Below are positions 25,736 to 64,000 of a stretch of 64,000 nucleotides of DNA, piece by piece. Below the pieces are notes generated by a model. The model saw only the letters and a list, made by a program, of their open reading frames with translations. It had not been told where the DNA came from and made no database searches. The stretch is from contig CANXME010000812.1 of NCBI GenBank assembly GCA_948144175.1, positions 1,116,001 through 1,180,000 on the forward strand, read 5' to 3'. The DNA is from Closterium sp. NIES-65. Its lineage: Eukaryota; Streptophyta; Zygnematophyceae; Desmidiales; Closteriaceae. Positions within the stretch are counted from its first letter, which is position 1. Each line of letters begins with the position of its first letter. A program made the translations under genes and the position numbers.

Positions 25736-29514
<3,779 letters not shown>

Positions 29515-29562
29515 GCATGTGCTATGTGTATCGGGTACGCTTCTTTATGTCGGTTAAGTCTG

Positions 29563-37096: not shown

Positions 37097-40000
37097 CTCT
37101 GTGAGTGCAAAGACGCCGATATCGTTTGAGCGGAGGGGAGAGCCCCTGCGGAGGAACTTGCTTCCTTGGAAGATGTAGAGCATGGGGACGCCCGTAGAGA
37201 GCTCCAGCTCAATCACCTGCATCATCATCAGCGAGTCACATCAAAAGGCAATGGCAGTGAGAATCAGGGGAATCAAAGTGGTGAATCCGGTCTCCATTTG
37301 AAGATGGTTCCTTGGAAGATGTAGAGCATGGGGACGCCCGTGGAGAGCTCCAGCTCTACCACCTGCAGCGTTTCGTGTAAAATTTGGACAACACAATTGG
37401 GGTGAAATTCAAGGGGATCAAGGAGGTGAATCTGGACTCGACTATAAACTGCTCCGTTGGCGTTGAAAGATGTAGAGCACGGGGACACCTGTGGAGAACA
37501 CCAGCTATATCACATGCAGCGTTTCACATCAAAACGCAATGGCATAAGAAACAGGGGAATAAACTTCTGAAAGACATAAGCGAAACTACCATGCAAAACA
37601 ATGAATATAGTAATTGTCCCTCCCACACCGTTCCTGGACGACTAGAGGTCGTTAGAACAATTCGCATCAATTACTTTACTTCCTCCTCACAACCTTCCCG
37701 GTCTCTCCTTACTATTTCCCCTCCCAAAGCTTATCACTCCGTAAATATGCATTCACATGGCCCACTCACACTGATTTTGTTCAGAAAGTGCGCGGAACGA
37801 AATGTAACATGGCACTTCAGACGGACATGACCTACCTCCTGTGAAATGACGCTGTCAAGGTACGCGATGATGGCGCGAATCGAGTTGCCATGTGTTTCGA
37901 GATGTCTCAAAACACGGAAGATGACATACCTCCTGCGACATAAAGCTGTCGAGGTTCATGATGATGGCGCGAAGCGAGTTGCCATGCGCACGCCGCAATC
38001 ATCACATTCTCGCCAGCCGTGAGTCTTGGTTCCACGTGGTATTTGAAATACGCCACGGATTCCCTAAATTTGTCTCTCCGTGCAGACGCACTCACCAAAA
38101 AAGGGCACGCTCTGAGTCTCGGCTCCACTTCACGTGATCCTTGATATATGTCACAGCGCGCTCAGCGCACATGGCGAGCTGATCATTCTAGTGCTCCCTT
38201 CTCTCAGAGTTGCACAGAGCGGAACATAGCAGTTCACACGGCACGTGACATACCTCCTGCGACGTAAGGCTGTCAAGGTACATGATGATGGCACGAAGCG
38301 AGTTGCCATGCGCTGCAATCATCACATTCTCGCCAGCCGTGAGTCTCGGCTCCACATTTTCCTTGAAGTATGCCACAGCGCGCTCAGCGCACATGGCGAG
38401 GGACTCGCCGTTGGGAGGCGGGACGTCGTACGATCGACGCCAGAGAACGACTTGCTCCATGCCGTACTTGTCTGCCGTCTCCTTCTTGTTCAATCCTTGG
38501 AGTTCTCCGTACCTGAAGGTCAGGGTTGGGAAAGGTTGGATTGGGGGTGCACGCGTATGACTGACTTGTTTGACTGCTGACTCCCGGTTCAAACCCAGGA
38601 GTCACACGCTAGATTCTCACGGCTGGTTGTAGCACGAGAGGGTGAGGGTAAAAAATATATATATTTTTCTGGAAATCGTTTCCAGTATCCGATGATACTG
38701 TGATAAGTCTTTGGATGACTGGCGGCCAACTGAGAGCATGGGCATTTACGAAACAGCACGAGTCAATATGCTTCAGCCAAACGTGTTATGGGGATTCATA
38801 CCAGACGGAATACACACCAGCGAAGTAAGTTTCTGCACCTGAAAACGTCAAGATGGAACAGAAAACAAAAAGAGAACCATGCGACTCACATGCGTTCGTT
38901 CAACTCCCACGCAGTGATCACGGGAATGATCCCCTCGTCAGTGTTCTGGCTGAAGATTCGACACTTCACATCATTGTGATTCGACACTTCACACCAAGGA
39001 CAAGTAATATGATGTGGCTTACATGCGTTCGTTCGGTTTTCACGCAGTGACCACGGGAATGGTTTCCTCGTCGGTGTTCTGGCTGTATTATTTTCGGGTC
39101 GACTCAAAACTCCGTGGAACCAAAAACGAGAACGAATGACGCGACTCACATGCGTTCGTTCAGCTCCCACGCAGTGATCACGGGAATGATCTCCTCGTCA
39201 GTGTTCTGGCTGAAGATTCGGCACTTGACATCATTGTGACTGAACCAAGTAGTATGATGTGGCTTACATGCGTTCGTTCAGCTCCCACGCAGTAATGACG
39301 GGAATGATCTCCTCGTCGGTGTTCTCACTGAAGATTCGGCTCCAGTCCTTGGCTCTCTGGCTCTCCTCGTGCAGGATGACAGGAACCTGGACGAGCGCGC
39401 AATATAAAAGGGACAGGAAAAGCGAGACGGGTGAAGAACGGATAATAGTAGCGAGAGTTTGTCTGGGCTGGAGTATGGTCCGACCTTTGACATTGCAGTG
39501 CAGAGGGTGTGTAACCTGTTCCGACGTTAACCTTTTGGGTGTTCTATCAGGAATGAAAAACCATGGTTCACGAGCAAAAACCGACATAGGAAGAAACATT
39601 CACTCCTCATTGTGATGATTATAAGGCCGTTCTCACCTTGTTACGGCGATGCTGCGTCATGGCCAGCATGGCGGTCATTTGAGCGCGGATCAACGCGGAG
39701 GTGAAAATGACATCAACGGGAATCTCGGAGATTCTCTTTCCTGCCTCAATGGCCTCATTGACACCCTTCTCCGACAGAGGAACGTCCACGCAGCCTGTGA
39801 ATAGGTTCTTAGAGTTCCAGAGAGACTCGCCATGGCGGATAAGGATCAGCGCAGCGGCCTCTGCGCAACACAGGTTTGGGGAATAATTAGGAAATGGAGA
39901 GTTTAAAAAGGCTGTCACGGAGACGCTGACAATGGCGGGAACGTTCCGCGAAACGCACGGATGAGCGAGCGACTCCCAGAAAAAAATGCTTTGACTCTTC

Positions 40001-40414: not shown

Positions 40415-42009
40415 GTTGTGAGGATAGTGAAATATCCGGAGGTCAGCGAGAAGTTACCAGCACCAAGCTGATCGAGACACGAATGTCTGTTTGGATCAAA
40501 TAGCGAACAGCAGCCACTTAAACCTTCTTCTATATCGAATAACAGCTGTTTAGACTTAGCTGAGAACAACGGATATTATTCTGGCTTTTTAGCTTGCTTG
40601 GACTCCTGATTGGCTTTATCAGAAGCCAAAGAGTAATAGAAACCACTGAGCCAGCTAAAGCCTTCGCCACTCCTCCACCACAGGACACGCTAGGGAGTGA
40701 GAAGAATCAATCACAACCTCCAATGCAGAACAGCCAGTCCACAAGCTAACCTCCACTGCACTCACTGAACCACGATCTCAAATCCTTCTGCTCATGCATG
40801 ATGGTTGTTGTTCGGTTTACTGCGTTCCAGAGCGGTGGTCAAATGAACCGTGTTATAGCGGAAAGGACCTATTTGAACCGGCTGCCAGTAAGCCTGACAA
40901 CAATGCTGGCCATTCCCATGTGACACCACCACGTCATTCGCACAAGCAAAGGCAGTCAGGATCCAAGGCTGAACTAGCAGCCGTTGAACCAACCAGAAAG
41001 GAACATGCCAAACCAGCATGAGCCAATCATCAACTAGAATCTGAAAACCATTTGCCAGCGAAGCCTAAATTCTCCTGCTCCGTGCCTGTAATCGACGTTC
41101 GGAGGGCTTGAGAAGGCCCGCGCATGTCAGCATCGCCGAGCCGAGGATGCAGCTGGTCAGACCCTCGGAACAGATTCTTCTCGTGAATGTTCGTGGGACG
41201 TCGCTAGGCCATAGGCGACACTCGTGACAGCTCTTGGAAATCGCGAATTCGGGCGAGGGAAGATTACCGCCGTTCGTCTCGAGGTTCTTGCAGCTGGGAG
41301 GGCTCGATCAGCCGCTCGCGCGCCATTGGATGATAAATACGAGGTGCGCGGAAGTTCGAGGTTATGGGACCCTCAGTGTCCCGTGCCAGGACGAACCCTC
41401 CCGAACACGTGGCAAAGTTCTGTAGGCTATAAGTTAGCCAATCGAGTTTCGCTTCTTAGCCTCCAATCTAGGATTGCCATGCAAAAAAGTAGCTCATCCA
41501 ATAACGATAATGGAGCGGTAAATGTCACATTCGCGTCATTCCAGATCAGCTGGCCCGGTCGCCACCACAATTCCCTCAAGCCGCTGAACCTCACCGCTGG
41601 ACATTGTCCTCCTGACAGTTCCATGCCTCTCGAAGTGACCCATCTGACGAAAACACTATCCGATATCCAACATAATTGGAGAGCACTCTCCTGCTAATTG
41701 TAGTAGTGTAGCGAAGAACTTCTAAACTCAACAAGAACTTCCATGAAATATAAAGCAGGTTATCAATAGGACAATTGACACCAATTTAGGTGGAACATGT
41801 TGAGACCTTCCAGCACTTGGCCAAACGTGATTCATATTGGAGAGACACACCGAGATTTTTTAGAGTGTAGCGGTGGTGGTGGTGCCGCTGCCTCTGCTGC
41901 TGGAGGAGTCTCCTCCAAGCACATCTTCTAGATTCTTTAATATACGCCCCGATTCAGGCTGCGGCAACAGGTCCTCAAACATTCCATGGTCGACTGAAAA
42001 GAAGTAACC
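40415..42009. other. Intergenic between PGM and the kinase
   Basis: This holds the PGM upstream region and the kinase 3' flank. Minus-strand 41,990-41,875 resembles the C-terminal end of the kinase last exon (FEDLLPQPESGRILKNLEDV against [20 protein letters not shown]), so it is a decayed extra copy of that edge. Otherwise no gene is supported. Confidence 0.5.
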
Positions 42010-42345
42010 TCAGTGCTCATTCTCTAGGCCGAGAATCTCCTCCAGACTCCTTATAACATGCCCCAATTTAGGACGCTGTAATGGGTCCTCATTCACGCAC
42101 TGCTTCCCAAGCATAAGCAGCTTCGTTGCCCCTTCTCTACTGTACACTCCGCGCAGCCTCTTATCCATAACAGTACACAAGTAAAAGGGGACAGATGCAT
42201 GCACATTCTCCTGCTCCTGCTGCTCCCACTGATGCTGCTGCTGCTGTTGTCGATCTCGTTGCTGCTCCAGCTGCTGATGTTGCTGCTTCTTGTGACGTCC
42301 CCCCCCCTCCCACTGAAGCTGCTGCGGCTGCTGTTGCTGTTGTTG

Positions 42346-42390
<45 letters not shown>

Positions 42391-45300
42391 CTGCTCCTCC
42401 TCCTGCTGCTGCTGCTGCTGTACAGACTGTTCACAGCGATCCAATTGTGTGAGAGCCCAGGGCAGGAGGCAGCGGGTCTTCTCAGCAGCACCCGGCGACC
42501 TGCCTGTTGCCAGCTCCAAAAGCACCACCCCCAGCGAGTAGATGTCACTGCGCGCGGTGAGGTGGCCTGGAGGGGGAAATGGTTGGGTTGGGAGCATTGG
42601 ATGGCACACACAAATGTGGTTCAGTCCTCTTCAGTGTGGTGGGTGTTGCGAGCAGCAGCACCCGGCGACCTGCCTGTTGCCAGCTCCAGCAGCACCACCC
42701 CCAGCGAGTAGACGTCACTGCGCGCTGTAAGGTGACCTGCAGACATGAGGGTGGAGATGGGGGGAGGAGTGCCTACAGCCATGAGGCGACCTGCCTGTTG
42801 CCAGCTCCAGTAGCACCACCCCCAGCGAGTACACGTCACTGCGCGCTGTGAGGTGGCCTTGAGTAAGCGAAGGAAGAAGGGGGTAGGGGGTATTGGGAGG
42901 GGGTTGGGGGTGGGTGGAGGGAAGGAGTGTTGGGTGTTCTCAGAACAGCAGCACCCGGCGACCTGCCTGTTGCCAGCTCCAGCAGGACCTCTCCCAGCGA
43001 GTAGACGTCACTGCGGGCCGTCAGGTGGCCCAGCGGGAAGAGGGGGGAGGGAGGGGTGTGGGGGGATGGGGGAAGGGATACCTATGGGCATGAGGCGACC
43101 TGCCTGTTGCAAGCTCTAGCAGCACCCCCCCCAGCGAGTACATGTCACTGCGTGCGGTCAAGTGGCCTGACGGGGACAGAAATGGGGGGCGGGGGTTGAG
43201 GAGGCATCAGCTCAACAGCACCGCTCCCAGCGAGTAGATGTCACTGCGTTCCGTCAGGTGGCCTGGAGGGAGGAGGGAATAAGGAAAAGGGAAGGGGTGA
43301 GGGGTTATCCGCTCAACAGCAGCACCGCTCCCAGCGAGTAGATGTCACTGCGTTCCGTCAGGTGGCCTGGAGGGAGGAGGGAAAAAGGAAAAGGGAAGGG
43401 GTGAGGGGTTATCCGCTCAACAGCAGCACCGCTCCCAGCGAGTAGATGTCACTGCCTTCCGTCAGGTGGCCAGGAGGGAGGAGGGAATAAGGAAAAGGGA
43501 AGGGGTGAGGGGTTATCCGCTCAACAGCAGCACCGCTCCCAGCGAGTAGATGTCACTGCGTTCTGTCAGGTGGCCTGGAGGGAGGAGGGAATAAGGAAAA
43601 GGTGAGGGGTGAGGGGTTATCCGCTCAACAGCAGCACCGCTCCCAGCGAGTAGATGTCACTGCGTTCCGTCAGGTGGCCTGGAGGGAGGAGGGAATAAGG
43701 AAAAGGGAAGGGGTGAGGGGTTATCCGCTCAACAGCAGCACCGCTCCCAGCGAGTAGATGTCACTGCGTTCCGTCAGGTGGCCTGGAGGGAGGAGGGAAT
43801 AAGGAATAGGGAAGGGGTGAGGGGTTATCCGCTCAACAGCAGCACCGCTCCCAGCGAGTAGATGTCACTGCGTTCCGTCAGGTGGCCTGGAGGGAGGAGG
43901 GAATAAGGAAAAGGGAAGGGGTGAGGGGTTATCCGCTCAACAACAGCACCGCTCCCAGCGAGTAGATGTCACTGCGTTCCGTCAGGTGGCCTGGAGGGAG
44001 GAGGGAATAAGGAAAAGGGAAGGGGTGAGGGGTTATCCGCTCAACAGCAGCACCGCTCCCAGCGAGTAGATGTCACTGCGTTCCGTCAGGTGGCCTGGAG
44101 GGAGGAGGGAATAAGGAATAGGGAAGGGGTGAGGGGTTATCCGCTCAACAGCAGCACCGCTCCCAGCGAGTAGATGTCACTGCGTTCCGTCAGGTGGCCT
44201 GGAGGGAGGAGGGAATAAGGAAAAGGGAAGGGGTGAGGGGTTATCCGCTCAACAGCAGCACCGCTCCCAGCGAGTAGATGTCACTGCGTTCCGTCAGGTG
44301 GCCTGGAGGGAGGAGGGAATAAGGAAAAGGGAAGGGGTGAGGGGTTATCCGCTCAACAGCAGCACCGCTCCCAGCGAGTAGATGTCACTGCGTTCCGTCA
44401 GGTGGCCTGGAGGGAGGAGGGAATAAGGAAAAAGGAAGGGGTGAGGGGTTATCCGCTCAACAGCAGCACCGCTCCCAGCGAGTAGATGTCACTGCGTTCC
44501 GTCAGGTGGCCTGGAGGGAGGAGGGAATAAGGAAAAGGGAAGGGGTGAGGGGTTATCCGCTCAACAGCAGCACCGCTCCCAGCGAGTAGATGTCACTGCG
44601 TTCTGTCAGGTGGCCTGGAGGGAGGAGGGAATAAGGAAAAAGGAAGGGGTGAGGGGTTATCCGCTCAACAGCAGCACCGCTCCCAGCGAGTAGATGTCAC
44701 TGCGTTCCGACAGGTGGCCTGGAGGGAGGAGGGAATAAGGAAAAGGGAAGGGGTGAGGGGTTATCCGCTCAACAGCAGCGCCGCTCCCAGCGAGTAGATG
44801 TCACTGCGTTCCGTCAGGTGGCCTGGAGGGAGGAGGGAATAAGGAAAAGGGAAGGGGTGAGGGGTTATCCGCTCAACAGCAGCGCCGCTCCCAGCGAGTA
44901 GATGTCACTGCGTTCCGTCAGGTGGCCTGGAGGGAGGAGGGAATAAGGAAAAGGGAAGGGGTGAGGGGTTATCCGCTCAACAGCAGCGCCGCTCCCAGCG
45001 AGTAGATGTCACTGCGTTCCGTCAGGTGGCCTGGAGGGAGGAGGGAATAAGGAAAAAGGAAGGGGTGAGGGGTTATCCGCTCAACAGCAGCACCGCTCCC
45101 AGCGAGTAGATGTCACTGCATTCCGTCAGGTGGCCTGGAGGGAGGAGGGAATAAGGAAAAGGGAAGGGGTGAGGGGTTATCCGCTCAACAGCAGCGCCGC
45201 TCCCAGCGAGTAGATGTCACTGCGTTCCGTCAGGTGGCCTGGAGAGAGGAGGGAATAAGGAAAAGGGAAGGGGTGAGGGGTTATCCGCTCAACAGCAGCG

Positions 45301-48300
45301 CCGCTCCCAGCGAGTAGATGTCACTGCGTTCCGTCAGGTGGCCTGGAGGGAGGAGGGAATAAGGAAAAAGGAAGGGGTGAGGGGTTATCCGCTCAACAGC
45401 AGCACCGCTCCCAGCGAGTAGATGTCACTGCATTCCGTCAGGTGGCCTGGAGGGAGGAGGGAATAAGGAAAAGGGAAGGGGTGAGGGGTTATCCGCTCAA
45501 CAGCAGCGCCGCTCCCAGCGAGTAGATGTCACTGCGTTCCGTCAGGTGGCCTGGAGGGAGGAGGGAATAAGGAAAAGGGAAGGGGTGAGGGGTTATCCGC
45601 TCAACAGCAGCACCGCTCCCAGCGAGTAGATGTCACTGCGTTCCGTCAGGTGGCCTGGAGGGAGGAGGGAATAAGGAAAAGGGAAGGGGTGAGGGGTTAT
45701 CCGCTCAACAGCAGCACCGCTCCCAGCGAGTAGATGTCACTGCGTTCCGTCAGGTGGCCTGGAGGGAGGAGGGAATAAGGAAAAGGGAAGGGGTGAGGGG
45801 TTATCCGCTCAACAGCAGCACCGCTCCCAGCGAGTAGATGTCACTGCGTTCCGTCAGGTGGCCTGGAGGGAGGAGGGAATAAGGAAAAGGGAAGGGGTGA
45901 GGGGTTATCCGCTCAACAGCAGCGCCGCTCCCAGCGAGTAGATGTCACTGCGTTCCGTCAGGTGGCCTGGAGGGAGGAGGGAATAAGGAAAAAGGAAGGG
46001 GTGAGGGGTTATCCGCTCAACAGCAGCACCGCTCCCAGCGAGTAGATGTCACTGCATTCCGTCAGGTGGCCTGGAGGGAGGAGGGAATAAGGAAAAGGGA
46101 AGGGGTGAGGGGTTATCCGCTCAACAGCAGCGCTGCTCCCAGCGAGTAGATGTCACTGCGTTCCGTCAGGTGGCCTGGAGGGAGGAGGGAATAAGGAAAA
46201 GGGAAGGGGTGAGGGGTTATCCGCTCAACAGCAGCGCCGCTCCCAGCGAGTAGATGTCACTGCGTTCCGTCAGGTGGCCTGGAGGGAGGAGGGAATAAGG
46301 AAAAAGGAAGGGGTGAGGGGTTATCCGCTCAACAGCAGCACCGCTCCCAGCGAGTAGATGTCACTGCATTCCATCAGGTGGCCTGGAGGGAGGAGGGAAT
46401 AAGGAAAAGGGAAGGGGTGAGGGGTTATCCGCTCAACAGCAGCGCCGCTCCCAGCGAGTAGATGTCACTGCGTTCCGTCAGGTGGCCTGGAGGGAGGAGG
46501 GAATAAGGAAAAGGGAAGGGGTGAGGGGTTATCCGCTCAACAGCAGCACCACTCCCAGCGAGTAGATGTCACTGCGTTCCGTCAGGTGGCCTGGAGGGAG
46601 GAGGGAATAAGGAAAAGGGAAGGGGTGAGGGGTTATCCGCTCAACAGCAGCACCGCTCCCAGCGAGTAGATGTCACTGCGTTCTGTCAGGTGGCCTGGAG
46701 GGAGGAGGGAATAAGGAAAAAGGAAGGGGTGAGGGGTTATCCGCTCAACAGCAGCACCGCTCCCAGCGAGTAGATGTCACTGCGTTCCGACAGGTGGCCT
46801 GGAGGGAGGAGGGAATAAGGAAAAGGGAAGGGGTGAGGGGTTATCCGCTCAACAGCAGCACCGCTCCCAGCGAGTAGATGTCACTGCGTTCCGTCAGGTG
46901 GCCTGGAGGGAGGAGGGAATAAGGAAAAGGGAAGGGGTGAGGGGTTATCCGCTCAACAGCAGCACCGCTCCCACCGAGTAGATGTCACTGCGTTCTGTCA
47001 GGTGGCCTGGAGGGAGGAGGGAATAAGGAAAAGGGAAGGGGTGAGGGGTTATCCGCTTAACAGCAGCACCGCTCCCAGCGAGTACATGTCACTGCAGGCC
47101 GTGAGGTGTCATGAGGGAAAAGGGGGGTATGCAGGATCGGAGGACACTTCAAGTGGAATAACGCGTACTAATACCTCACTGAACCCATTTTTACCACACT
47201 GCACCCACCCATCTCCACCACAATGAACCGCGGTGAACCCCTCCTCACCTGTGTCGATGTACGAAGGGTCCAGGTAATCCAGGGTGCCGACGATGCGAGT
47301 CGAAACATGCGACTTGCCCACCCACCCACCATGCCACCAACCAACTCATGTTAATCCCCATTGGGCACCCATCTCCACCGCACTGAACCGCATTGAACCA
47401 CTCTGAACCCCTCCGCACCTGTAGCGATGTATGCAGGGTCCAAGTACCCCAAGGTCCCCGTGACACGTGTTGATACGTGCCAATTGCCCAGCCCACCCAC
47501 AGCCCCACAACACACTCTTGCTGTCCGCATTGGGCACCCATCTCCACCGCACTGAACCCCTCCTCACCTGTGTCGATGTATGAAGAATCCAAGTACCCCA
47601 AAGTCCCCGTGATGCATGTTGATACGTGCGACTCGCCCAACCCACCCACAGCCCCACTCATGCTATCCGCATTGGCCACCCATCTCAACCGCACTAAACC
47701 GCACTGCACTGCACCGAACTGCACATAACCGGGCCTCACCTGTGTCAATGTACGAAGGGTCCAAGTACCCCATTGTCCCCGTGATGCGAGTAGACACATG
47801 CGACTTGCCTGCCTTAGGCCCTGCTGTGGCCACTCCCTACCCCACAATCCATGTTCATCCACCTCAATCGCACTGAACAGCACTAAACCGCACTCAACCA
47901 ATGTAAACCCCTCTGTACCTGTGTCAATGTACGAAGGGTCCAGGTACCCCATTGTTCCCATGATGCGCGTCAACACATGCGACTTGCCCACCCACTGCCG
48001 CACAGCATAACTCGAGTTTGTCCAGTTTGGCACCCATCTCCACCGCACTAAACCGCACCTCACCTGTGTCTATATACGCAGGGTCCAAGTACCCCATTGT
48101 CCCCATGATGCGCGTAGACACGTGCGACTTTCCCGCCTCGGGCCCTGCAGTTGCCATCCCGAAATCCGTCAGCTTTGCACGCATGTGCTGCGGAGTGGGG
48201 AGAAAGGATGAGAGAAAGGGAAAGATATCAGAATGCGAAGGAGCGTGCGACTTGCCCGCCTCGGGCCGTGCAGTTGCCATTCCGAAATCCGTCAGCTTCG

Positions 48301-51300
48301 CATTCATGTGCTGTGGAGGGGTGGGGGGGAGGGGAGGGAAAGGGGAGAGGAAAGGGAGAGGTGTATTCGACAACTGATGTCAGGATGAGAGGGCTTTTGA
48401 GGCGCCTCAAAAAGGGGGGGAGGGAAAGGGGAGAGGAAAGGGAGAGATGTATGCAACAACTGATGTCAAAATCTGTCAGATCTGTCAGATCCGTCAGATC
48501 CGTCAGATCCGTCAGATCCGTCAGATCCGTCAGAAAGGAAACGATGGACAACTGAGACGGAAAGATGTCAGAATGAGAGGGCGGGTGAGAGAGCAGGTTG
48601 CGACGGAGGGCAAGAGGGAGGTTGAGGTTGAGCTCATAGCAGGGTGAGCTTACAGCAGGGTGAGCTGAGCTCCTGCTGTGGCCATTCAAGAAATCATTGG
48701 CTGTGTGCCGTTGTTAGTTACCTCATCCTGCTGCCCACAGTACACCAGTGCAGATACACCCTGTACGCGTTATTACCACATCCAGCAGAATGTTGCTTGT
48801 CTTGAAGTCCCGGCGAATCACGTTCTGCCCGTGCAAATACACCCTATACGCGTTATTACCTCATCCAGTAAAATGTTGCACGTCTTGAAGTCCCTGTGAA
48901 TCACGTTCTGCCCGTGCAGGTACTCCAGCCCTCTTGCCACGTCCACAGCTATGCGCACGCGCTGCTGCCACGTCAGCACAGGCGTGGCGGGATCAACGGC
49001 GCTGGCAGCAGCACCAGACACACCCCTAGCCGCTGCAGCAGCTGTAGCAGCAGCATCCCGTATAGCAGCATCATCTATAGCAGCAGCGTTATCTGTAGCA
49101 GCCTCACTCATACCCCCCCAACTCCGCTTCCTCTCCTCCTCCTCCCCCTCCTGCTGCTCCTCCTGCTGACGTGGATACAGCCACGTGTGCAGATTCCCCC
49201 TCTCTATAAGCTCATACACCAGCAATGCGGCAGCACCCCCCCGGGGCCGATTCAAGTCCACACAGTACCCTAGCAGCCGCACCAGATTAGGGTGGTGTAA
49301 ACTCCCAAGCATTATAATCTCTGACATACACTCATCTACGGCCTTGAAACTGCCGCTGTGTAGCACCTTCACTGCCACGTCACGCTGACGTGGCATCCCA
49401 CCTCCACCACCACCACCACCTGAAGCACCACCACCCGCTCTTCCTGCTCTTCCTGCTCTCCCTGCTCTTTCTTCCTCGTTCCTCTGCGCTTTCCCTCCTC
49501 CTCCTCTCTCCTCCCCTGGAACCTTCCTGTCATCTTCCTCGCCGAGCCACTCCTCCACCGAGCCTCGGTACACCGTGCCGAAGCTGCCGCGGCCCAGGAT
49601 CTGGCTCGGGCCGAACCACTGCGTGGCCTGCTGTAGCTCGCGGTAGGTGAACCGGCGGAGTGGTAGCGTGGACCAGGTCTCGTCTGTTGTTGTGAATCGG
49701 CTGCCTGTCACTGGCAGGTGGAAAGGAGGGGAAGAGGGGCAGGAGGGGAAGAGGGGCAGGAGGGGAAGAGGGGCAGGAGGGGAAGAGGGGCAGGAGGGGA
49801 AGAGGGGCAGGAGGGGAAGAGGGGCAGGAGGGGAAGAGGGGCAGGAGGGGAAGAGGGGCAGGAGGGGAAGAGGGGCAGGAGGGGAAGAGGGGCAGGAGGG
49901 GAAGAGGGGCAGGAGGGGAAGAGGGGCAGGAGGGGAAGAGGGGCAGGAGGGGAAGAGGGGCAGGAGGGGAAGAGACAGGAAGAGAGGCAGGTCTCGTCCT
50001 TTTGAGAATCGGCCACTTGCCTTTGAAAATGCTCAAGAGCCAGATCGGCGGAGTGGTAATGCGGACCAGGTCTCGTCCTTTTGAGAATTCTCAAAAAAAC
50101 ATACTCCGTTGAGAGGGGCACTGGTAGTGCCCCTCATCCGTGGTTGTGAATCGGCTAGTGCCGGACACTGGTAGGAGGGGAAGACGTGGGGAGAGGAAGG
50201 AGGGGAGGCAGGAGGGGAGGCAGGAGGGGAGGCAGGAGGGAGGCAGGAGGAGGCAGGAGGGAGGCAGGAGGGGAGGCAGGAGGGAGGCAGGAGGGGAGGC
50301 AGGAGGGGAGGCAGGAGGGGAGGCAGGAGGGGAGGCAGGAGGGGAGGCAGGAGGGGAGGCAGGAGGGAGGCAGGAGGGGAGGCAGGAGGGAGGCAGGAGG
50401 GGAGGCAGGAGGGAGGCAGGAGGGGAGGCAGGAGGGGAGGCAGGAGGGGAGGCAGGAGGGGAGGCAGGAGGGGAGGCAGGAGGGGAGGCAGGAGGGGGGC
50501 AGGAGGGGAGGCAGGAGGGGAGGCAGGAGGGAGGCAGGAGGGGAGGCAGGAGGGGAGGCAGGAGGGGAGGCAGGAGAGGAGGATAGGCAGGATGGGAGGC
50601 AGGAGGGTAGGCAGGAGGGGAGGCAGGAGGGTAGGCAGGAGGGGAGGCTGGAGGGATTGGTCCTTGAGAGAATTCTCAGAAACTACTAGCTTGGTGGAGT
50701 GCTGCTGACGTGGTCCAGGTCTCATCCGATGTTGTGAATCGACTAGTGCCTGACACTGGCAGGGAGGGAAGACATGGGAAGAGAGGCAGGAGAGATCGTG
50801 CGAGAGATTAAGAGGAGCCACCGCGTGGCCTGCTGGAGGTGGAGGTGAGGTCACTTTGAGGAGGCGAGGCTGCACGCGATGGAGTGGACGGCAGCCAAGC
50901 CATGTAAGTGGAACCACGGCCGTGAGCGGTGCACGTGGCAGCACGCGCCAGCACCCACCTGAGGAGGCGCGGCTGCAGGCGATGGAGTGGACGGCAGCCA
51001 AGAAGTACAAGGGGAAGGGGAAGGGGAAGGGGAAGGGGAAGGGGAAGGGGAAGGGGAAGGGGAAGGGGAAGGGGAAGGGGAAGGGGAAGGGGAAGGGGAA
51101 GGGGAACCGACCACGACTTTGGTCGGCGCTGGCGAGGAGATGAAGAAGAAGGTCTATACTGAGAGCAAGAGAAATGAAGAATACTGCGAACAAGAGCAAG
51201 AGAAGAAGAAGAAGAAGCGCAAGTGGCAGCACGGACCTGAGGAGGCGAAGCTGCAGGCGATGGATTGGACGGCTGCGAAACCGTGCAAGTGGAAGTGGAA

Positions 51301-53973: not shown

Positions 53974-56900
53974 ATGGCGGACCATCGAGCAGAAAGGCAT
54001 GGAATTGCCGAACCGTCAGCCACGCCGCGATCGTCATCGATTGGTGGTAGTTTCGGTTCATCAATCCCAAGTCCTGTAGTTAAACAACGGTTACTATTCC
54101 AGTCACCACAAGGAGCATCGGAAGTCCTTATAGCGAAGGAAAACGGTCCAGGTAAGGAGGGAGGCTCTGGTATTCCAGTGTCACCCAGGCCTGGCCTCAA
54201 ACCTCCAGGAACGGTCACTAGTCTCCGAACCTCGTGGACACCTTCGTCGCGCCTTCCGTCGAACCTGCCGCGTAGGTCAGGCTCGGGTCAAGGCTCGGAG
54301 GACGCAGGGGAGCTGAGCCGGACCAGCTCAGCAAGCTCGGATGCCGGAAGCAGGTTCGGGACGGAAACTCCGGGCAGGAGTAGCGCGAGTGACGCCGCGA
54401 GTGCTAGTAGAATCCATTACAATGGTGGAGGGAAGGCGACTGGAGTCCTGCGTCCGAGTAATCATGGTACGTTACACCCGTTAAGGTGTAGTTCATTACC
54501 TTGAAGAAAAAATATTATATGTTATGTAACTGCGGCGTCCGCAGTATACCTGTTTCATAACTGTAGATATTACAAGCGGCGCTTTTTAAGTCTGTCTCCT
54601 CAGTCTGTTTCCCTTTTTAAGATCCCCGTCATCCTTTTTCGTCAACTCTGTAAATTTCGTAACACCCGTTTCGCACGGATGCTTTTCCTCGCTGTCCCCG
54701 GTAACAGCTGGCGAGCAGGCGGCCTCGTTAGCTGCTGACGTCAAGCCGGAAAGGAGATCGCACCCTGGGCAGGAGCAACGGCAGCGTCAGCAGGATTCGA
54801 TGCACCAGCAGCATGAGCAGCAGCATGAGCAGCAGCATCTGCAGCAGGCGCATCAGGCTGGTGGTAGGTTCGGCTTCAAATCCCCCTCATTGCAAAACCA
54901 TCGGCAGCACGAATCGCAGCCAACGTCGCCGCTGCTGGCGGCGCAGCAGCCGCGAGGTCACATTCAGCCGGAAGAACGCGTAACTGGAAGCTTCTCCGCA
55001 GTTCCGGACGGGTCGGACCGGAGGCTCAGCTTCGGAAGGGTGGAGTCGCAGCTTCGGGTGAAAGAGATGAGAGGCTTGGAGAGGAAAGGTTCGGAAAGGA
55101 GAGCCGTTGGGGGAGGTCGGGAGGGGGTTACGCGCGCGGGGGACGGGGAGGAAGCGGCGGAGGAGGAGAGGCGGAGGGAGATTGAGAGGGAGAGAAAGAG
55201 GGAGATAGAGAGGGCGATAGAGAGGGAGATGGAGGTTGCGCGAGAGTGGGAGGAGAAGGAGAGGGCGGAGAGGGAAGAGAGGGAGGAGAGGGAGAGGTTG
55301 CTGAAGGAAGAAAGGGAGAAAGAGAGGAAGGAGAAGGAGAGAAGAGTTCAGGAAGAGAAGGCAAGGCGTGAACGAGAAGAGAAAGAGAGGGTTGAGAGGG
55401 AGAGAGCAGAGAGGGAACGGAAGGAGAGGGAGAAGGCTGAACGGGAAAAGATGGAGAAGGAACGGAAGGAGAGGGAGAGGAGGGAAAGGGAGAGGTTTGA
55501 GAGGGAGAGGGTGGAGAGGGAGGAAAGGGAACAGCGGGAGAGAATGGAGCGAGAGTTGGAGGAGCGGAGGGAGAAGGAGAGGCAAGAGGAGCTGGCGAAA
55601 GTGAGACAGAGGGAGCGAGAGCGGTTGAGAGAGATTGAGCTGCAGATGGAGCGACAGAGGCATGTGCGAATCGCAGAAGAACGGCAGAGGGAGAAGGAGA
55701 GGGCTGAGGAGCGAGAGAACGAGCGGCGGAGAATGGAAGAGGGGGAGAAGGAGCGGGAGAGGGAGAGGGAGAAGGAGAGGGAGAGGGTGAGAGTGGAGCA
55801 GAGGCAGAGAGAGGAGGAGCGGCGGGTGAGGCAGCAGAAAGAAGTCCAGAGGCGAAAGGAGAGGCGCGGAGATGAGCTATCAGGGAAGGCCATGGGGGAT
55901 CCTCTTCGTGTGATCGCCTGGGTTGCGGGAGCAGGAGTGTCGTCTGCTGCTTTCGGCGAGCCATCCAGCTCGTTTGGAGCACCTTATCAGGTATAAGTTG
56001 TGGAATTTTGTTAAGCGGCCATGGGGGGGGGGGTATCCTCTTCGTGTGATCGCCTGGGTTGCGGGAGCAGGAGTGTCGTCTGCTGCTTTCAGCGAGCCTT
56101 CTGGCTCGTTTGGTACGCCATATAAGGTAAAACTGAAAGAGGAGCTGAGATTTCCTTAAAATTGCAGCCAAAGGAGACAAGTGCACACATGCCCTTTGCG
56201 TTGCGCTCGTAGGTTGGTTCGGCGTGCCATATTGAGTGTTTTTGTTGCCGTGATTGTTCCTAATGATGCGATTGGAGGTTGATGGTGATTGGTTGATCAT
56301 CGTATTGTGCATGTATTAGGTGTGTCTATGTATGTCCAACTCGTGTTTGTTCTTTCCCTGGGCTTCGGATCATTCTCAGATTGTACGTGATTTAATCACG
56401 TGTTCGTATGTGTGTCCACTTCGTGTTTTCTCTTTTCCAGGCGTCTCCGGATCATTCTCAGGTGCTGCAGCAGTGGGTGCAGAGAGCAACCCACTTCCAC
56501 AGCAGGCTGGGATCTGACGTGGCTCCAGCTGACGTGGCACCAGCGTCAGCTGTAGCGGACTTTTGGCAGGGTGTTAGGGCAGCAGTGGAGGCGGCAGAGG
56601 ATGTGGCTATAGCGGGGGATGAGGAGCAGCAGGAGGGCGTGGCTGTGACTGTAGGCGCGTGTGACTTAGCTGCAGTGCGACAGCTGCAGGGGAATGCGAG
56701 GAAGCGAGGTAAGATGCCACTAGCAAACCATCCACCCCACCTACCAACCACCCTTCCCTTAGCCTTTTCTCCTCAACCCCACCTGGGTGCTATTTTGTCC
56801 TTTATGTTCACATTCCCCCAATCTCTCATTCCCCAATCTCTCATTCCCCCAATCTCTCATTCCCCCAATCTCTCATTCCCCCAATCTCACATTCCCCCAA

Positions 56901-59900
56901 TCTCTCATTCCCCCAATCTCTCATTCCCCCAATCTCTCATTCCCCCAATCTCTCATTCCCCCAATCTCTCATTCCCCCAATCTCTCATTCCCCCAATCTC
57001 TCATTCCCCCAATCTCTCATTCTCCCAATCTCTCATTCCCCCAATCTCTCATTCCCCCAATCTCTCATTCCCCCAATCTCTCATTCCCCCAATCTCTCAT
57101 TCCCCCAATCTCTCATTCCCCCAATCTCTCATTCCCCCAATTTCCTATTCCCCCAATCTCTCATTCCCCCAATATCTCATTCCCCCAATCTCTCATTCCC
57201 CCAATCTCTCATTCCCCCAATCTCTCATTCCCCCAATCTCTCATTCCCCCAATCTCTCATTCCCCCAATTTCTCATTCCCCCAATCTCTCATTCCCCCAA
57301 TCTCTCATTCCCCCAATCTCTCATTCCCCCAATCTCTCAGTCTCCCAATTTCTCCTTCACCCCCCTCTCCATCCCCCAGTGGCAGCAGCAGAGGCGATGG
57401 CGCAGCAGGTGGGGGCATTCGAGTCCACGTGTGGGGCAGCTGGACGGGGAAGCGAGGAGGCACTTGTGATTCCCAGAACCTCATTCTCTCCTCTCTTATC
57501 CACAACCCCCCCCCCCTCATCCTGCAGTGGCAGCAGCAGAGGCGATGGCGCAGCAGGTGGGGGCGTTTGAATCCACGTGTGGGGCAGCAGGGCGGGGAAG
57601 CGAGGAGGTGGTTAGGGTGGCCATTCAACAGCTGATGGAGTGAGTATGAGTGCTGCTGCTGCTGCTGCTTCTGCTGCTGCACTGCTGCTGCTTTCCCCCT
57701 CCCACTCCTTTCCCCCCTCCCATTCCATTGCCCCCTCCCATTCCCTTTCCCCCTCCCACTCCCTTTCCTCCTCTCACTCCCTTTCCCCCCTCCCATTCCC
57801 TTGCCCCCTCCCATTCCCTTTCCCCCTCCCACTCCCTTTCCTCCTCTCACTCCCTTTCCCCCTCCCATTCCCTTTCCCCTTCCCACTCCCTTTCGGCCTC
57901 TCACTCCCTTTCCCCCTCCCACTTCCTTTCCCCTCTCTCACTCCCTTTCCCCTTCCCATTCCCTTTCCCCCTCCCACTCCCTTTCCGCCTCTCACTCCCT
58001 TTCCCCCTCCCACTTCCTTTCCCCCCTCTCACTCCCATTCCCCCTCCCACTTCCTTTCCCCCCTCTCACTCCCATTCCCCCTCCCATTCCCTTTCCCCCT
58101 CCTAATTCCTTTCCGCCTCCCACACCCTTTCCCCCTCCCACTCCCTTTCCCCCCTCCCACTTCCTTTCCGCCCCCCACTCCCTTTTCCCCTCAAACTCCC
58201 TTTCCCCCTCCCACTCCCTTTCCCCCCTCTCACTCCCTTTTCCCCTCCCACTCCCTTTCCCCCTCTCACTCACTTGCCCCCTCCCTCCTGCAGGGTCGTC
58301 GCCAATCAAGGCCTCACACTCCATAGGCTTTCCGCTACAGCTGCTACAGCTGCTCCCGCTGCTACAGCCCCTACAGCCGCTACAGCCACTACAGCCGCTA
58401 CAGGCGGGGAGGAGGAGCAATGGGAAGATCCCTTGGTGTTGGCCGTGGGAGGGGTGGTGGGAGCAGCGGCTGCGGCACTTAAGAGCTGGCTAAGTGTCGT
58501 TGTGGAGGGGAGGAAGGGGAGGAAGGGAGGAGTGGGAGGAGGTGGAGGTGCGGGGAAGGTGGCAACTGGTGCAGGTGCATCTGGTGGGCATGTACTGTTG
58601 CAGCCGCCCAAGGCTGCTCTAGCTGTAAGTATTTGGTTTTGTGAGATTTTGCCTTTTTTCTCTCTTTGTGTGAGTCCTGGCCTCTCTGTCTGCTTGAGAC
58701 GGTGTCTGTGTGAGACGGTGTCTGTGTGAGACGGTGTCTGTGTGAGACGGTGTCTGTGTGAGACGGTGTCTGTGTGAGTACCTGCATTTGAGGTGCCTCA
58801 TAAGCTTGTTACCATGCCAAGCCATCTCACTTTCACATCACACCCATTTCTCTGTACCCCTTATAAACACATGTCGAGTCGACCTCTTCCATTCCCTCTC
58901 TTCCGATCCCACTGCTTCTCTGCAACTCCCCCTTGATGATTTCCCAGGATTTAAGGGAGGCTCGTGATGTGCTGGACGTGTGGCGGCATGAGCTGGCACG
59001 GCTGCACTCGCGCCTAGTCAGCGTCGTCTGCCGCTCCCAGCTGATGTCAGCATGCGGCCGCATGACCTGGCAGCCAGCATCGCCAGCTCAGCTCCCGGGC
59101 CAGGACCACACGATGGCCCCTGCTGACGTGGCAATGGCGTCTGCTTGCGCTTTCCTGGACCAAGCGATAGACATTCGGCAGCAGGTGAGATTTTTCAGGC
59201 GGCAGGTTAGATTCTCTGGCCGGCAGGGTAGATTCTCCAAGTGTCTGGGAGGTGATACTGAAAGAGTTGGCTTGTGCCTATCGCCATTATCAGTTTCTTT
59301 TTGTCCTCTTTTCCATCCCTGCAGCATGAGGGGTGGGAGGAGGCGATGACAGCAGCTGCTCTGGTGTGCGACCTGGAAGCTTCCTCAGGCATCAGCAACA
59401 CCGGTGGTGCTGACGTGGACAGGTGGAGGCGCTTCCTGGAGCCACTCACAGACAGCCACGTGGCAGACATTCTCGAAGGTGCGGAACATACGCAGGGGTT
59501 TACTGCTGATAGCCTGTGGAAACCTCTTCTGGTGTGGCTCCCTCCTCCCTCCCTCGTCCGATCCCTCTCAACACCTTCCAACCGCTTCCCCCACCCTCCC
59601 CTCCCCCTCTCTCCCCGCTCACACACAGGCGACCTTGCCAGCTGGCGGGCGGTGCAGGGCATCTACTGGGCGGCAGTGGCCCGGGAGGAGGAGGCACTGG
59701 CGGGGCTGCTGCAGGCGCGACTGGGGGAGGTGCCATCCGCCATGGGGCGGCTGCAGCTGCTGGCGCAGTGCTCGTCCTTTACTGCGCTGCCGCGGGTATG
59801 ATTTCAGTAGGCTTGTGTTGTGTGTGGGTCTTGAGCCGACTCAATTGACTGTTCACTCCACTAGGAACGCTCTTACTTGTCCAAAGAGGGTTGTTTTGTT

Positions 59901-62900
59901 CACTTCAACCTTCAAGGATGGTTGCTCTCAGTTGTTCATACAGTCGTCCCACTTTTTCCCTTGCTGCTCCTCTGCCTTCCCTCCCTCTCCGTCCTCCACC
60001 CTCCTCCCCACCACCACGGCAGGTGTCAGCACGCCTGCAGCACGACTTGCAGCAAATGCTGCACGAGGTGGCAGCAGGTGAGAGGGGCGTATGACGCTTT
60101 TGAATGCCACCAGTCGAGGTGTATGGTAGTTGCAAGGCAGATGTTGCACGATAGCTGCTGCTTTCTGAAAGAATGGTGGGAGAGGTGTCTGCAACCCTTA
60201 TGAGGTGTGTGCAACCCTTATGAGGTGTGTGCAACCCTTATGAGGTGTGTGCAACCCTTATGAGGTGTGTGCAACCCTTATGAGGTGTGTGCAACCCTTA
60301 TGAGGTGTGTGCAACCCTTATGAGGTGTGTGCAACCCTTATGAGGTGTGTGCAACCCTTATGAGGTGTGTGCAACCCTTATGAGGTGTGTGCAACCCTTA
60401 TGAGGTGTGTGCAACCCTTATGAGGTGTGTGCAACCCTTTTGAGAGTTCCCAAAAAGCACATTGTGTCTGCAACCTTTTGAATGTGCTGCTTCCCTGTGC
60501 CCTTACCACCCTTCCACCGCCCCCCTTCCGTTTCTTCCTTCCTCCCCCATTTATTTCCCATCCCCTTTCCCCCTCTGCTCTCCCGTCTCCATTCCCCAAC
60601 TCCTTCACCTTTCCTTCCCATTCCCCAACTCCTTCACCTTACCTTCCCATTCCCCATCTTCCGTTTCCTCTCCGCCTCCCCATTCCCCCTCCCCCACTCT
60701 CCTTCCCATCCGCCCTCCCCATTCCCCTTCCCCATCCCCTTTCCCATCTCCCCTCCCCCTCCCCATCCCCCACCCCCCTCCCCACTCCCCGTCTCCCCTT
60801 CGCCAGACGTGCGAGCACTGGAGGAGCAGCTATGGCACCCAACCGCAGCCTGCCACGTGTCCTCTCTTGCCCAGCTCAGGGGCGTGCCACGTGTTGCCGC
60901 CTCAGTGGCCCGCGCCAAAGCCATTCACGGGAAGCTGAGGGCGCTAGACGCGGCCCTGCACGCTCTGCTGGGTGACAGCTGGCGCAGCGGGATTGGTCGG
61001 GCGGGGAGGGGAGGGAGCAGGAGGGGAAGAGGCGCGGGGGGAGCGGTGGGGATGGGTGGAGATGGGGAGGGAGGGGTTGAGTGTGGTGGGGCGGGGTGGG
61101 GAGCGGTGACGGACGGTGGGCTGCGGAGGTCGATTGCTCGGCTGCTGGAGGAGGCGTTGCAGCAAACGGACCCTCAGAAAGTGCGTGTTTGTGTGTGAAG
61201 AGATAACTCCCGCTACTGGCAACACCAACCATGTGCAGAAGCATGAGTGCGGAGGAGGCAGAGGAGGCCCTCAGAGGCCCTGTGCTTGCCCCCTGCTCGT
61301 CCCGCCCGCTACTAACGAGTGTCTCCCTCTCTTTTCTCCCATCCACCCATCCACTCTCCCTTCCAGACTGTCAACCCGTGGCTGCAAGAAAAGCTCGCTC
61401 CCACCACCACCACCAGCAACAACAGCAGCATGAGTGCGGAGGAGGTAGAGGAGGCCCTACGAGGCCCTGTGCTCGCCCCCTGCTCGTCCCGCCCTAACAA
61501 ATCTTTCCCTCTCTCCCCTGAATCCATCCACTCTCCCTTCCAGACCGTCAATCAGTCGCTTCAAGAAAAGCTCGCTCCCCACACTGGCAGCACCAACAGC
61601 AGCAGTAGCATGAGCGCGGAGGAAGCAGAGGAGGCTGTGAGAGGCCCTGTGCTCGCCCCCTGCTCGTCCCTCCCGCCCCTAACAACTGTCTCCCTCTCCT
61701 CCCCATCTACCCATTCATCTTCATCCACTCTCCCTTCCAGACCGTCAATCAGTGGCTGCAAGAAAAGCTCGCTCCCTGCTCGTCCCCCTGCTCGTCTCCC
61801 TGCTCGTCCCCCTTACAAGTGACTCTCTCTCTCCCCCTTCGTCCATCCCTCCACTCTCCCTTCAGACCGTCAACCAGTGGCTGCAAGAAAAGCTCGCTCC
61901 CCACACTGGCAGCACCAGCAGCAGCAGCATGAGCGCGGAGGAAGCAGAGGAGGCTCTCAGAGGCCCTGTGCTCACCTCCTGCTCGTCCCGCCCGCCCCTG
62001 GCTGACGTCAGCAACAGCAGCGCGGCTACAGCCGGGGAGGAGGAGCAGGCGGAGCCGCTGCTACAGCTGCAGGTGAGGGGGAGAGACAATGAGGGGTGGA
62101 AGGTTAGGGGAGGAAGGTTAGGGGTGGGACACTGGCAGGTGAGGGGTGGAAGGTTAGGGGTGGGACACTGGCAGGTGAGGGATGGAAGGTTAGGGGTGGG
62201 ACACTGGCAGGACGGGGAGATGAGGCACAGACGACTTGTGTATGGGGAGGAGGAGCAGGCGGAGCCGCTGCTACAGCTGCAGGTGAGGGGTGGAAGGTTA
62301 GGGGTGGGACACTGGCAGGTGAGGGGTGGAAGATTAGGGGTGGGACACTGGCAGGACGGGGAGATGAGGCACACGCCCTCCTGCCCCTCTGCCCCTTACT
62401 GACCCCCTGCCCTCTGCCCCTTGCCCCTCTGCCCTGCCTGTGTGCTCCCTATGAAACCATAATCCATGCCCCATCTCCCCCCTCCAGGTGCAGTACAAGG
62501 CGAGGCTTCTCCATCTGAGTGACGAAGTTCGCTCTCTAAGAGCATCAGGCTTCCACACCCCGCACCACCTGCTCGCCTGCGCCTTCTCCGCCTCTGCTGC
62601 CGCCTCCTCCGCATCCACCATCTCCCCTCCTGCCCCTCTGCCCCTCCCTGAACCCCTGCCCTCTGCACCTTGCCCCTCTGCCCTGCCTGTCTGCTCCCTA
62701 TGCCACATCTCCCCCCACCAGGTGCAGTACAAGACAAGCCTGCTGCATCTGAGCGAGGAGGTCCGCACCCTTCGGGCATTAGGCTTCCACATCCCGCACC
62801 ACCTGCTCGCCTGCGCCCTCTCCGCCTCTGCTGCCGCCTCCTCCGCATCCACCATCTCACGAGCGCTCGAGAGCTTTGCTGATGTCAGCGCTGGCGTCAG

Positions 62901-64000
62901 CAAGGGCGTGCTGCCGCTGGTGGTGGCTTCGCGAGAAGCGGTGCTGGGGTTAATGCAGAGCGGTGAGTCGGCACGCGGGTAAGGAAGCAATGGTGGGGGT
63001 ACTGCACTCTAGTGAGTGGGTGATGCAGTCCGGAAGCAAAAGCGTGCTGCCGCTGGTGGCGACGACAAGGAAAGCGATGCTGGGGATAATGCAGAGCGGT
63101 GAGACTTGATTGTACAGCAGTAAGGGGGGGTTGGGGATAATGCAGAGCGGTGAGTCATTGCTGCGGAGTGGTAAGGGTGGATTGGGGATCATGCAGCAAG
63201 GGGTGGCTGGGGATAATGCAGAGTGGTAAGTGGTGGTTGGGGATAGTACAAAGCGGCGAGTCATAATTTAAAGGTGTGGGTAGGGAAGAGGGACGGTGGA
63301 AGATATATTTAGTCCCTCTGGTGAGGAAGAAAGAAGAATAGAGAATGGGTTGAGGAGGAAGAGGAGGACGAGCTTGCAGTGTGCCTGTGGGGTGCTGTCG
63401 TGCCGAGGAGGGAACTGGGTGTGTGTTTGAGTCAGCCACCCATCTCAACCACTCCGTTGTCCCCTGACTTCCCCTCATGTTCCCCCTTGCTTTCCCCGAT
63501 TTCACCTCACCATTGGCCACCGTTGCAGGTCAGGGAGTGGTGTGGGAGGAGGAGGGAGCAGGACGAGTTGGCGGTGTGCCTGTGGGTTGCCGTGGGGTGG
63601 GGGGAAGCTTGGCGTATGAGTCTCCCCTTCCACTCCAATGTCTATTGCGGGATAAGAGACGACTTTTGACGTGCCTCAAATGCCGTGGGGGGAACTTGGC
63701 GCATGAGTCTCCCCTTCCACTCCATCGTCTCCTGACTTCCCCTCATGTTACCCTTGGTTCCCCTACTGCCCGCACTGCAGGCCAGGGCGTTGTGTGGGAG
63801 GAGGAGGACGAGTTGCAGTGTGCCTGTGGGATGCAGAGGAGGGAACTTGGTGTTTGAGCCTGTTACCCATCTCAACCACTCCTTTGTCCTCTGGCTTCCC
63901 TTCATGGTCCCCCTTGCTTCTCCCAATTTCCCCCCCCCTGCAGGTGGAAGTGTGGTGTGGGAGGAGGAGGACGAGGTGGATGAGTTCGCCGTGTGCCTGT
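53974..64000 (+). CDS. Large unrecognised protein with a long Glu/Arg helix, 3' end outside window
   Basis: Thirteen exons join in phase: 53974-54466, 54708-55990, 56441-56708, 57528-57639, 58294-58624, 58948-59184, 59325-59478, 59629-59795, 60023-60077, 60807-61180, 61866-62072, 62722-62962 and 63944-beyond 64000 (over 1320 codons). ATG 53,974 is chosen for its context (GCCATGGCG); 53,947 is an in-frame alternative. The N-terminus is a Ser/Pro/Arg-rich disordered region. Residues about 315-560 are almost entirely Glu/Arg/Lys (REEREERERLL and the like), the signature of a stable single alpha-helix or coiled coil. The rest is helical and Ala/Leu-rich, with pieces such as VLQQWVQRATHFHSRL, LREARDVLDVWRHELARLHS and RWRRFLEPLTDSHVADILEG, and ends in an acidic VVWEEEDEVDEFAV. 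The composition recalls microtubule-associated or scaffold proteins, but I recognise no family. Confidence 0.72.
56000..56131 (+). repeat. Copy of the 3' edge of exon 2 (53,974 gene)
   Basis: The last about 115 nt of exon 2 (PLRVIAWVAGAGVSSAAF) recur about 131 bp downstream with a G-run insertion, ending CCATATAAG|GTAAAA. True exon 2 ends CTTATCAG|GTATAA at 55,990. Confidence 0.9.
56320..56395 (+). repeat. Decayed copy of the acceptor and 5' edge of exon 3
   Basis: TTCGGATCATTCTCAG, preceded by a pyrimidine-rich tract, matches TCCGGATCATTCTCAG at the start of exon 3, about 82 bp upstream of it. Confidence 0.75.
56816..57350 (+). repeat. 16-bp minisatellite in intron 3
   Basis: About 33 tandem copies of CCCCCAATCTCTCATT, pyrimidine-rich on the coding strand. 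Confidence 0.95.
57380..57470 (+). repeat. Copy of the acceptor and 5' edge of exon 4
   Basis: CCCCCAG then sequence coding AAAEAMAQQVGAFESTCGAA, nearly identical to true exon 4 (57,528-57,639), 148 bp upstream. It lacks the exon's 3' end and donor. Confidence 0.9.
57695..58285 (+). repeat. 18-bp pyrimidine minisatellite in intron 4
   Basis: About 32 copies of CCCTCCCACTCCCTTTCC with variants, running up to the acceptor of exon 5. Confidence 0.93.
58690..58785 (+). repeat. 16-bp minisatellite in intron 5
   Basis: About six copies of GAGACGGTGTCTGTGT. Confidence 0.92.
59185..59245 (+). repeat. Short copies of the exon 6 3' edge
   Basis: The end of exon 6 plus donor (CGGCAGCAG|GTGAGATTT) is followed by GGCGGCAG|GTTAGATTCT and GCCGGCAGGGTAGATTCT at steps of about 25 bp. 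Confidence 0.6.
60190..60445 (+). repeat. 20-bp minisatellite in intron 9
   Basis: About thirteen copies of GAGGTGTGTGCAACCCTTAT, uninterrupted until a final diverged unit. Confidence 0.95.
61200..61815 (+). repeat. Four copies of the acceptor and 5' edge of exon 11
   Basis: Blocks starting at about 61,206 (partial), 61,367, 61,541 and 61,741 code variants of TVNQWLQEKLAP, then SMSAEEAEEALRGPVL in the longer ones, each of the last three after a CTTCCAG acceptor. The true exon (61,866-62,072) is the only one continuing to LLQLQ|GTGAGG. Confidence 0.9.
62073..62370 (+). repeat. 36-bp minisatellite and a copy of the exon 11 3' edge
   Basis: Units made of GGTGAGGGGTGGAAGGTTAG + GGGTGGGACACTGGCA follow exon 11. 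At 62,238-62,283 the exon end (GEEEQAEPLLQLQ) and donor GTGAGG are repeated, followed by more 36-bp units. Confidence 0.88.
62488..62640 (+). repeat. Copy of the acceptor and 5' edge of exon 12
   Basis: CCTCCAG, then sequence coding VQYKARLLHLSDEVRSLRAS and on to SASTIS; 234 bp upstream of true exon 12 (62,722), with about 85-90% identity by eye. Confidence 0.9.
63010..63260 (+). repeat. Several copies of the exon 12 3' edge
   Basis: The exon end GGGGATAATGCAGAGCG plus donor GTGAG occurs near 63,100 and 63,150, with diverged copies near 63,195, 63,225 and 63,255. The first copy extends back to LPLVVASR-like sequence near 63,040. Confidence 0.85.
63529..63860 (+). repeat. Two copies of the acceptor and 5' edge of exon 13
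   Basis: At 63,529 and 63,781, GCAG is followed by GTGGTGTGGGAGGAGGAGG or GTTGTGTGGGAGGAGGAGG, matching exon 13 (63,944 on). Intervening sequence (CCCATCTCAACCACTCC, CCCCTCATGTT) is also repeated, with a period of about 160-250 bp. Confidence 0.85.

Follow-up and report, generated by a model that had tools for sequence, protein, structure and literature searches.

Introns of Closterium sp. NIES-65 contain many partial copies of the exon ends that adjoin them, and most of these copies run to the exon edge and carry the splice dinucleotide with them. We found this arrangement in a 64,000-nt stretch of contig C811 (positions 1,116,001 to 1,180,000 of CANXME010000812.1; hereafter the window), where it affects three unrelated genes encoding a phosphoglycerate mutase, a protein kinase and a dynein heavy chain, as well as in chaperonin and HSP70 genes elsewhere in the genome. 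The intron anatomy is real and abundant; the type of mutation is a known one, and what is new to us is how far it extends and how long its unit is. With moderate confidence, we favor the view that recurrent tandem duplications of approximately one nucleosome's length, most likely products of break repair, have been filtered by a splicing sieve, and that introns may grow by this route in Closterium. The literature that we searched, in which most subscription journals were out of reach, contained no description of exon-edge copies of this kind.

Exon-intron structures were solved for the three genes in the window, giving 15 introns and 30 junctions. Consistent with the original prediction, the solved exons of all three genes joined in phase into an open frame, with the copies sitting inside introns and outside the joined frame. 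Self-comparison of window positions 30001-64000 detected exon-edge copies in each of the three genes, and a partial exon copy was present on the intron side of 12 of the 30 junctions (6/15 donors and 6/15 acceptors; copies of at least 20 nt), in agreement with an earlier count of at least 12.

We measured the anatomy of the copies in 32 introns, comprising those of the window and of six chaperonin genes, using copies of at least 30 nt and exon pieces capped at 260 nt. The mid-intron acceptor copies of kinase exon 42566, which form a 104-bp array, were left out of the anatomy and codon counts because this one array would dominate them. Of the 64 copies, 54 reached the exon edge to within 4 nt, 3 stopped 5-20 nt away and 7 lay further in. 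When copies were placed at random in their own exon pieces, a mean of 4, and at most 12, fell at the edge in 2000 trials. In these introns, the expectation that intron copies favor exon edges over exon interiors was borne out. Full exons had been thought to be rarely copied, and none of the 64 copies covered 95% of its exon piece, the exon parts averaging 90 nt. Splice dinucleotides were mostly retained, GT in 23 of 24 donor copies and AG in 22 of 25 acceptor copies. The duplicated unit, taken as the shift of the nearest copy, had a median length of 146 bp (interquartile range 131-174).

Copies were likewise abundant beyond the window. A whole-genome search with family PF00118 supplied one locus for each of 11 chaperonin genes, and in 10 of these at least one local duplication overlapped a matched exon; the remaining locus, L025 (C1882:338000-347900), had no duplication over its matched exons, its single local duplication falling outside them. 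Wherever neighboring family matches abutted, and only there, splice joins were solved on the basis of splice score, frame and profile length; 6 of the 11 loci yielded a total of 17 chaperonin introns in this way. Several joins scored low (totals of 5.4, 6.6, 8.0 and 9.1 in the chaperonin set, and of -9.7 and 3.9 in a set comprising HSP70 genes and a distant mutase relative), and some edges may be wrong. Counting copies of at least 20 nt, we found them at 24 of 34 junctions in the six chaperonin genes and at 14 of 16 junctions in two HSP70 loci, and at neither of the 2 junctions of the distant mutase relative. In the window and chaperonin genes taken together (32 introns), 36 of 64 junctions had copies; adding the 14 of 18 junctions in 9 further introns brings the total to 50 of 82. 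A difference in HSP70 copies between contigs C957 and C2039, seen among the duplications listed, was left out of consideration.

The preferred unit length was more evident in genic loci. Local duplications there numbered 175 once the homologous loci L009-L012 and L015 had been left out, and 90 of them had units of 120-170 bp. The corresponding figure was 6 of 27 (Fisher P 0.006) in comparison stretches, namely the early, transposon-rich part of the window plus five unselected stretches of 10 kb each. The clearest young case, in chaperonin locus L019, is an ordinary tandem duplication. Its unit of ~173 bp consists of 119 exon and 54 intron bases, and the live end is followed by two copies head to tail, with the exon part 93-95% and the intron part 98% identical. 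The breakpoint at one young L019 junction showed imperfect short homology (a single junction, judged by eye). Young arrays also cross acceptors, with units of 104 bp in the window kinase and 124 bp in L019. Head-to-tail adjacency is direct in these young cases; older cases retain the spacing only. Separately, at gene-strand positions ~1934-1975 of L019, a duplication of ~23 bp across the same donor appeared by eye to be nested inside the larger one.

We propose that Closterium genes and their surroundings repeatedly acquire short tandem duplications, the preferred unit being ~130-150 bp, about one nucleosome core, probably when staggered breaks or nearby opposite-strand nicks are filled in and rejoined. 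A sieve would follow because, where a unit spans one junction and no more, the outer copy retains an intact exon and its own splice site, so that a normal mRNA could be produced and the extra copy would become intron. Duplications inside exons would shift the frame, those across a whole exon would insert an extra exon, and such events would be lost unless in frame. Introns would thereby grow outward from exon ends, and some units would later expand into minisatellite arrays. The copies themselves would be functionless and decaying; if alleles are deeply diverged and recombining, the copy neighboring an exon would often come from a different allele. Within the solved window exons, tandem-repeat periods were a multiple of 3 in 22 of 25 rows (rows overlap), which supports a frame sieve weakly, because low-complexity coding repeats behave this way in any genome.

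Several findings weigh against this explanation. At just 8 of the 14 copy-bearing HSP70 junctions did copies reach within 4 nt of the edge, and at the other 6, counted by eye, they ended 23-94 nt short; either the edge rule is weakened there, or the edges were wrongly solved, or these copies have a different origin. Intron-only duplications numbered 6 in the 32 introns, and in one of these the unit was 100 bp or longer. Duplications of 120-170 bp reached 6.89 per 10 kb in chaperonin loci, ~10-fold the 0.69 per 10 kb of the comparison stretches; an untargeted process would give no such contrast if the two were alike in age and detection. Finally, the 549 differences between 63 copies and their live exons fell 126, 79 and 344 times at codon positions 1, 2 and 3, respectively (P values of this test overstate certainty because copies of one exon are not independent). 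The resulting third-position share of 63% exceeds the ~50% that, by our reasoning, duplication followed by neutral decay can give at most, and exchange among diverged alleles, which might resolve the excess, was not sighted directly.

The scarcity of intron-only units of at least 100 bp and the ten-fold difference in density would be expected if the process were aimed at exon ends, one nucleosome's length at the exon boundary being preferentially duplicated through nucleosome positioning or breaks linked to transcription or splicing. The many copies reaching the exon edge and a unit near 147 bp fit this alternative as well. However, the exon share of the units averaged 0.50 with a wide range (32 units), as random placement gives. 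Collapsed introns had a median length of 241, and because the unit length is close to this value, random units near an intron would often cross one junction. Our hand estimate of the number of intron-only duplications predicted by the sieve is roughly 2 to 20. The intron parts of the units had a global identity of 0.59 vs 0.49 for unrelated introns, and 16 of 32 exceeded the 95% level of their own control; because these parts are so diverged, many old intron-only duplications would be missed. In simulations, divergence of 0.35-0.45 gave a global identity of ~0.57-0.64, with a probability of detecting an intron-only duplication ranging from 0.02 to 0.65. As for density, the comparison stretches are rich in transposons and probably younger. 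Targeting of junctions is possible but not shown, and we regard a process aimed at exon ends as doubtful. An unlikely extension of this idea makes the exon boundary itself the unit of duplication through chromatin- or splicing-linked breaks, such that introns would shed exon ends and archive former or foreign alleles, readable against the living exon. A wider process that duplicates splice junctions had been predicted: short tandem duplications across junctions were indeed found in many unrelated genes with splice dinucleotides mostly intact, whereas centring on the junctions was not supported.

The divergence of the copies is coding-like. Differences per site amounted to 0.24 at 4-fold sites vs 0.058 at 0-fold sites, and to 0.133 vs 0.026 for transversions alone. 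Decay through cytosine deamination was rejected as the source of the third-position excess, since transversions were equally skewed, and copies as snapshots of the live exon that decayed neutrally were rejected because the third-position share was too high. These site-class differences, together with the retained splice dinucleotides and the 4 of 35 junctions at which the best copy had at least 5 synonymous and zero amino-acid changes, could indicate that the copies act as functional spare or alternative exon ends whose coding sequence is under selection. Yet 25 of 29 insertions and deletions (indels) in the copies were not multiples of 3 and 5 substitutions created stops, which makes present-day translation of the copies into protein unlikely. 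Two copies, inspected by eye, also offered no convincing splice-site partner at the inner end, and for this reason splicing between matching AG-GT points of copy and exon was discarded as well. In the one mutase exon that could tell, the annotated mutase protein P0001 agreed with the live exon, not the copy. We consider a functional role for the copies unlikely.

A homologous contig, C2061, allowed the source of the mutase copies to be considered. At sites where the two live exons (C811 and C2061) differ, the copies matched the adjacent exon 24 times, that of the other contig 22 times and neither 5 times; strong local homogenisation by gene conversion was rejected given this lack of preference for the adjacent live exon. 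Among 25 copy-by-site comparisons at protein differences between NIES-65 and NIES-68 (sites recur among copies), the NIES-65 residue was found in 15, the NIES-68 residue in 8 and another residue in 2. The absence of a preference and the NIES-68 residues, along with coding-like divergence and nearly randomised intron parts, are what one would expect if the copies were pieces of a diverged homologue or relative, acquired through template switching or homology-led insertion of short fragments instead of duplication of the adjacent exon. The Closterium genome paper (PMC10407611) describes a hybrid history within the complex for strain NIES-4550, which fits such a source. However, the young L019 unit, intron part included, is a plain head-to-tail duplication, and we consider a foreign origin of the copies quite improbable. 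Returning to tandem duplication followed by the splicing sieve, the simplest, albeit unproven, account of the coding-like divergence is that copy and exon were separated by recombination among deeply diverged alleles, within a complex for which a hybrid genome is known; allele exchange of this sort would explain the third-position excess.

Contig C2061 bears copies at the same junctions as C811, and the mutase copy sets differ between the two contigs. Relative to C811, 3744 bp of the kinase 104-bp array (~36 units) are absent from C2061, and a 412-bp block also differs. The original prediction was to fall if the copies proved to be assembly artefacts. Repeats are difficult to assemble; nevertheless, copies recur on a separately assembled contig, their exon parts are ~10% different from the exon, and the genome paper (PMC10407611) gives a published NIES-65 assembly of 876 Mb built from PacBio reads with an N50 of 30 kb, with a mean intron of 485 bp. 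An artefact is thus extremely improbable. The same paper notes that the strains were haploid-phase samples and that over half of the gene groups occur in duplicate. Between window positions 36500-64000 and C2061, identity was 78-92% across the mutase gene but 97-99.6% over the greater part of the kinase and dynein genes; this unevenness suggests recombination or conversion between diverged copies.

Tandem exon duplication, as seen in mutually exclusive exons, copies whole exons locally with both splice sites. The Closterium copies resemble it in that exon sequence is copied locally into introns, and differ in that no whole exon piece was copied. Small tandem duplications like those proposed here have reportedly been observed in rice (by Vaughn and Bennetzen in 2014) and in plants (by Schiml et al. 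in 2016). In a study of CST/Pol alpha-primase fill-in (PMC8355091), small tandem duplications known in plants and humans are ascribed to break repair starting as nearby single-strand breaks. As in such staggered-break or paired-nick repair, copies in the young Closterium cases are adjacent and head to tail; unlike the duplications covered there, those of Closterium have a dominant ~146-bp unit, involve most junctions of several genes and arose in repeated rounds. Tandem duplication also meets splicing, with a peptide that can stay unchanged, in the cases of Hellsten et al. 2011 and Ma et al. 2016 (PMC4974935); in the potato case, an intron-exon structure was duplicated. There, a new intron arose inside an exon, whereas the Closterium copies lie within existing introns and add none. 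Introners, as described in PMC9860276, share with these copies a genome-wide remodelling of introns; they are self-copying elements found in many genes, whereas the Closterium copies, compared with their own exons, match the exon beside them. The Closterium genome paper (PMC10407611) reports extensive duplication in the same genome and one hybrid strain with recombination between diverged copies; the parts consulted concern whole-gene copy number and do not mention partial exon copies in introns.

Intron lengthening and the limits on intragenic duplication generally have to be deduced from rare occurrences. In the conserved genes studied here, a majority of the examined junctions keep a record against which the living exon can be read. 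With its preferred unit of ~146 bp, the system lends itself to tests of a link to chromatin or replication, and because the extra splice sites are mostly intact, it also allows tests of how a splice site is chosen from among near-identical competitors. The copies also offer ancestral or foreign exon states inside one genome, and automatic Closterium gene models may select copies.

The individual copies in the window are as follows. The mutase gene (37096..39860, minus strand) encodes a 2,3-bisphosphoglycerate (2,3-BPG)-dependent phosphoglycerate mutase, its joined frame matching annotated NIES-65 protein P0001 at 238 of 239 residues, with exons at 39860-39637, 39386-39268, 38512-38254 and 37216-37096. 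Three donor-side copies of exon 39386-39268 (exon nt 47-119, 62-119 and 49-119 of 119) occupy 38890..39222, each stopping at the exon edge and GT. Donor-side copies of exon 38512-38254 (exon nt 113-173, 137-259 and 203-259 of 259, the first being an internal piece) lie at 37836..38178, and comparison of the exon with local DNA placed two acceptor-side copies of exon 37216-37096 (exon nt 1-58 and 1-51 of 121) at 37305..37513.

The kinase gene (42000..49710, minus strand, outermost limits approximate) was assigned by family match to PF07714/PF00069 and joined into one frame from exons 49710-48860, 48187-48064 and 42566 to ~42000; we take it to belong to an RLK/Pelle-like subfamily, a label of our own. 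Self-comparison revealed a donor-side copy of exon 49710-48860 at 48745..48843 and an acceptor-side copy of exon 48187-48064 at 48244..48344. Five donor-side copies of the latter exon, all with GT, lie at 47206..48020. Acceptor-side copies of exon 42566 extend over 42653..47124, four older ones and then the 104-bp array of ~38 units (43118-47095), which, in an intron of 5497 bases, is the most extreme case in the window.

The large helical-protein gene (54708..62962, plus strand) encodes a dynein heavy chain N1 (DHC_N1) protein, PF08385 having been found in the part scanned. Its exons, 54708-55990, 56441-56708, 57528-57639, 58294-58624, 58948-59184, 59325-59478, 59629-59795, 60023-60077, 60807-61180, 61866-62072 and 62722-62962, form one open joined frame. 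Self-comparison placed a donor-side copy of exon 54708-55990 at 56030..56132, acceptor-side copies of exon 61866-62072 at 61207..61865 and a donor-side copy of the same exon at 62244..62319. The acceptor-side copy of exon 57528-57639 (57380..57460) spans 81 nt at 94% identity. A junction copy search placed an acceptor-side copy of exon 62722-62962 at 62488..62624, and a donor-side copy of the same exon lies at 63035..63103, with more short copies, seen by eye, to ~63230. The acceptor and start of the next dynein exon are repeated over 63529..64000, a stretch running to the window end in which any of the repeats may be the live one. The gene places a dynein heavy chain N-terminal region (PF08385, 54708-62962) in a zygnematophycean alga, a member of a group not known to have flagella. 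Among the protein matches listed, there was one relative, a partial protein of Closterium NIES-53.

Elsewhere in the genome, the 12 matches obtained with PF00171 were scattered and for the most part single exons, and they were set aside. An aldehyde dehydrogenase match at G000:C1051:4192871-4194283 covered almost the entire family model without a break in the frame; this locus could be intronless, transferred or a contaminant. In the first part of the window (1-25000), translations inspected by eye contained Copia-like and Gypsy-like long terminal repeat retrotransposon reading frames, accompanied by many minisatellites, and a TG dinucleotide array of ~3.8 kb occupies 25734-29515.

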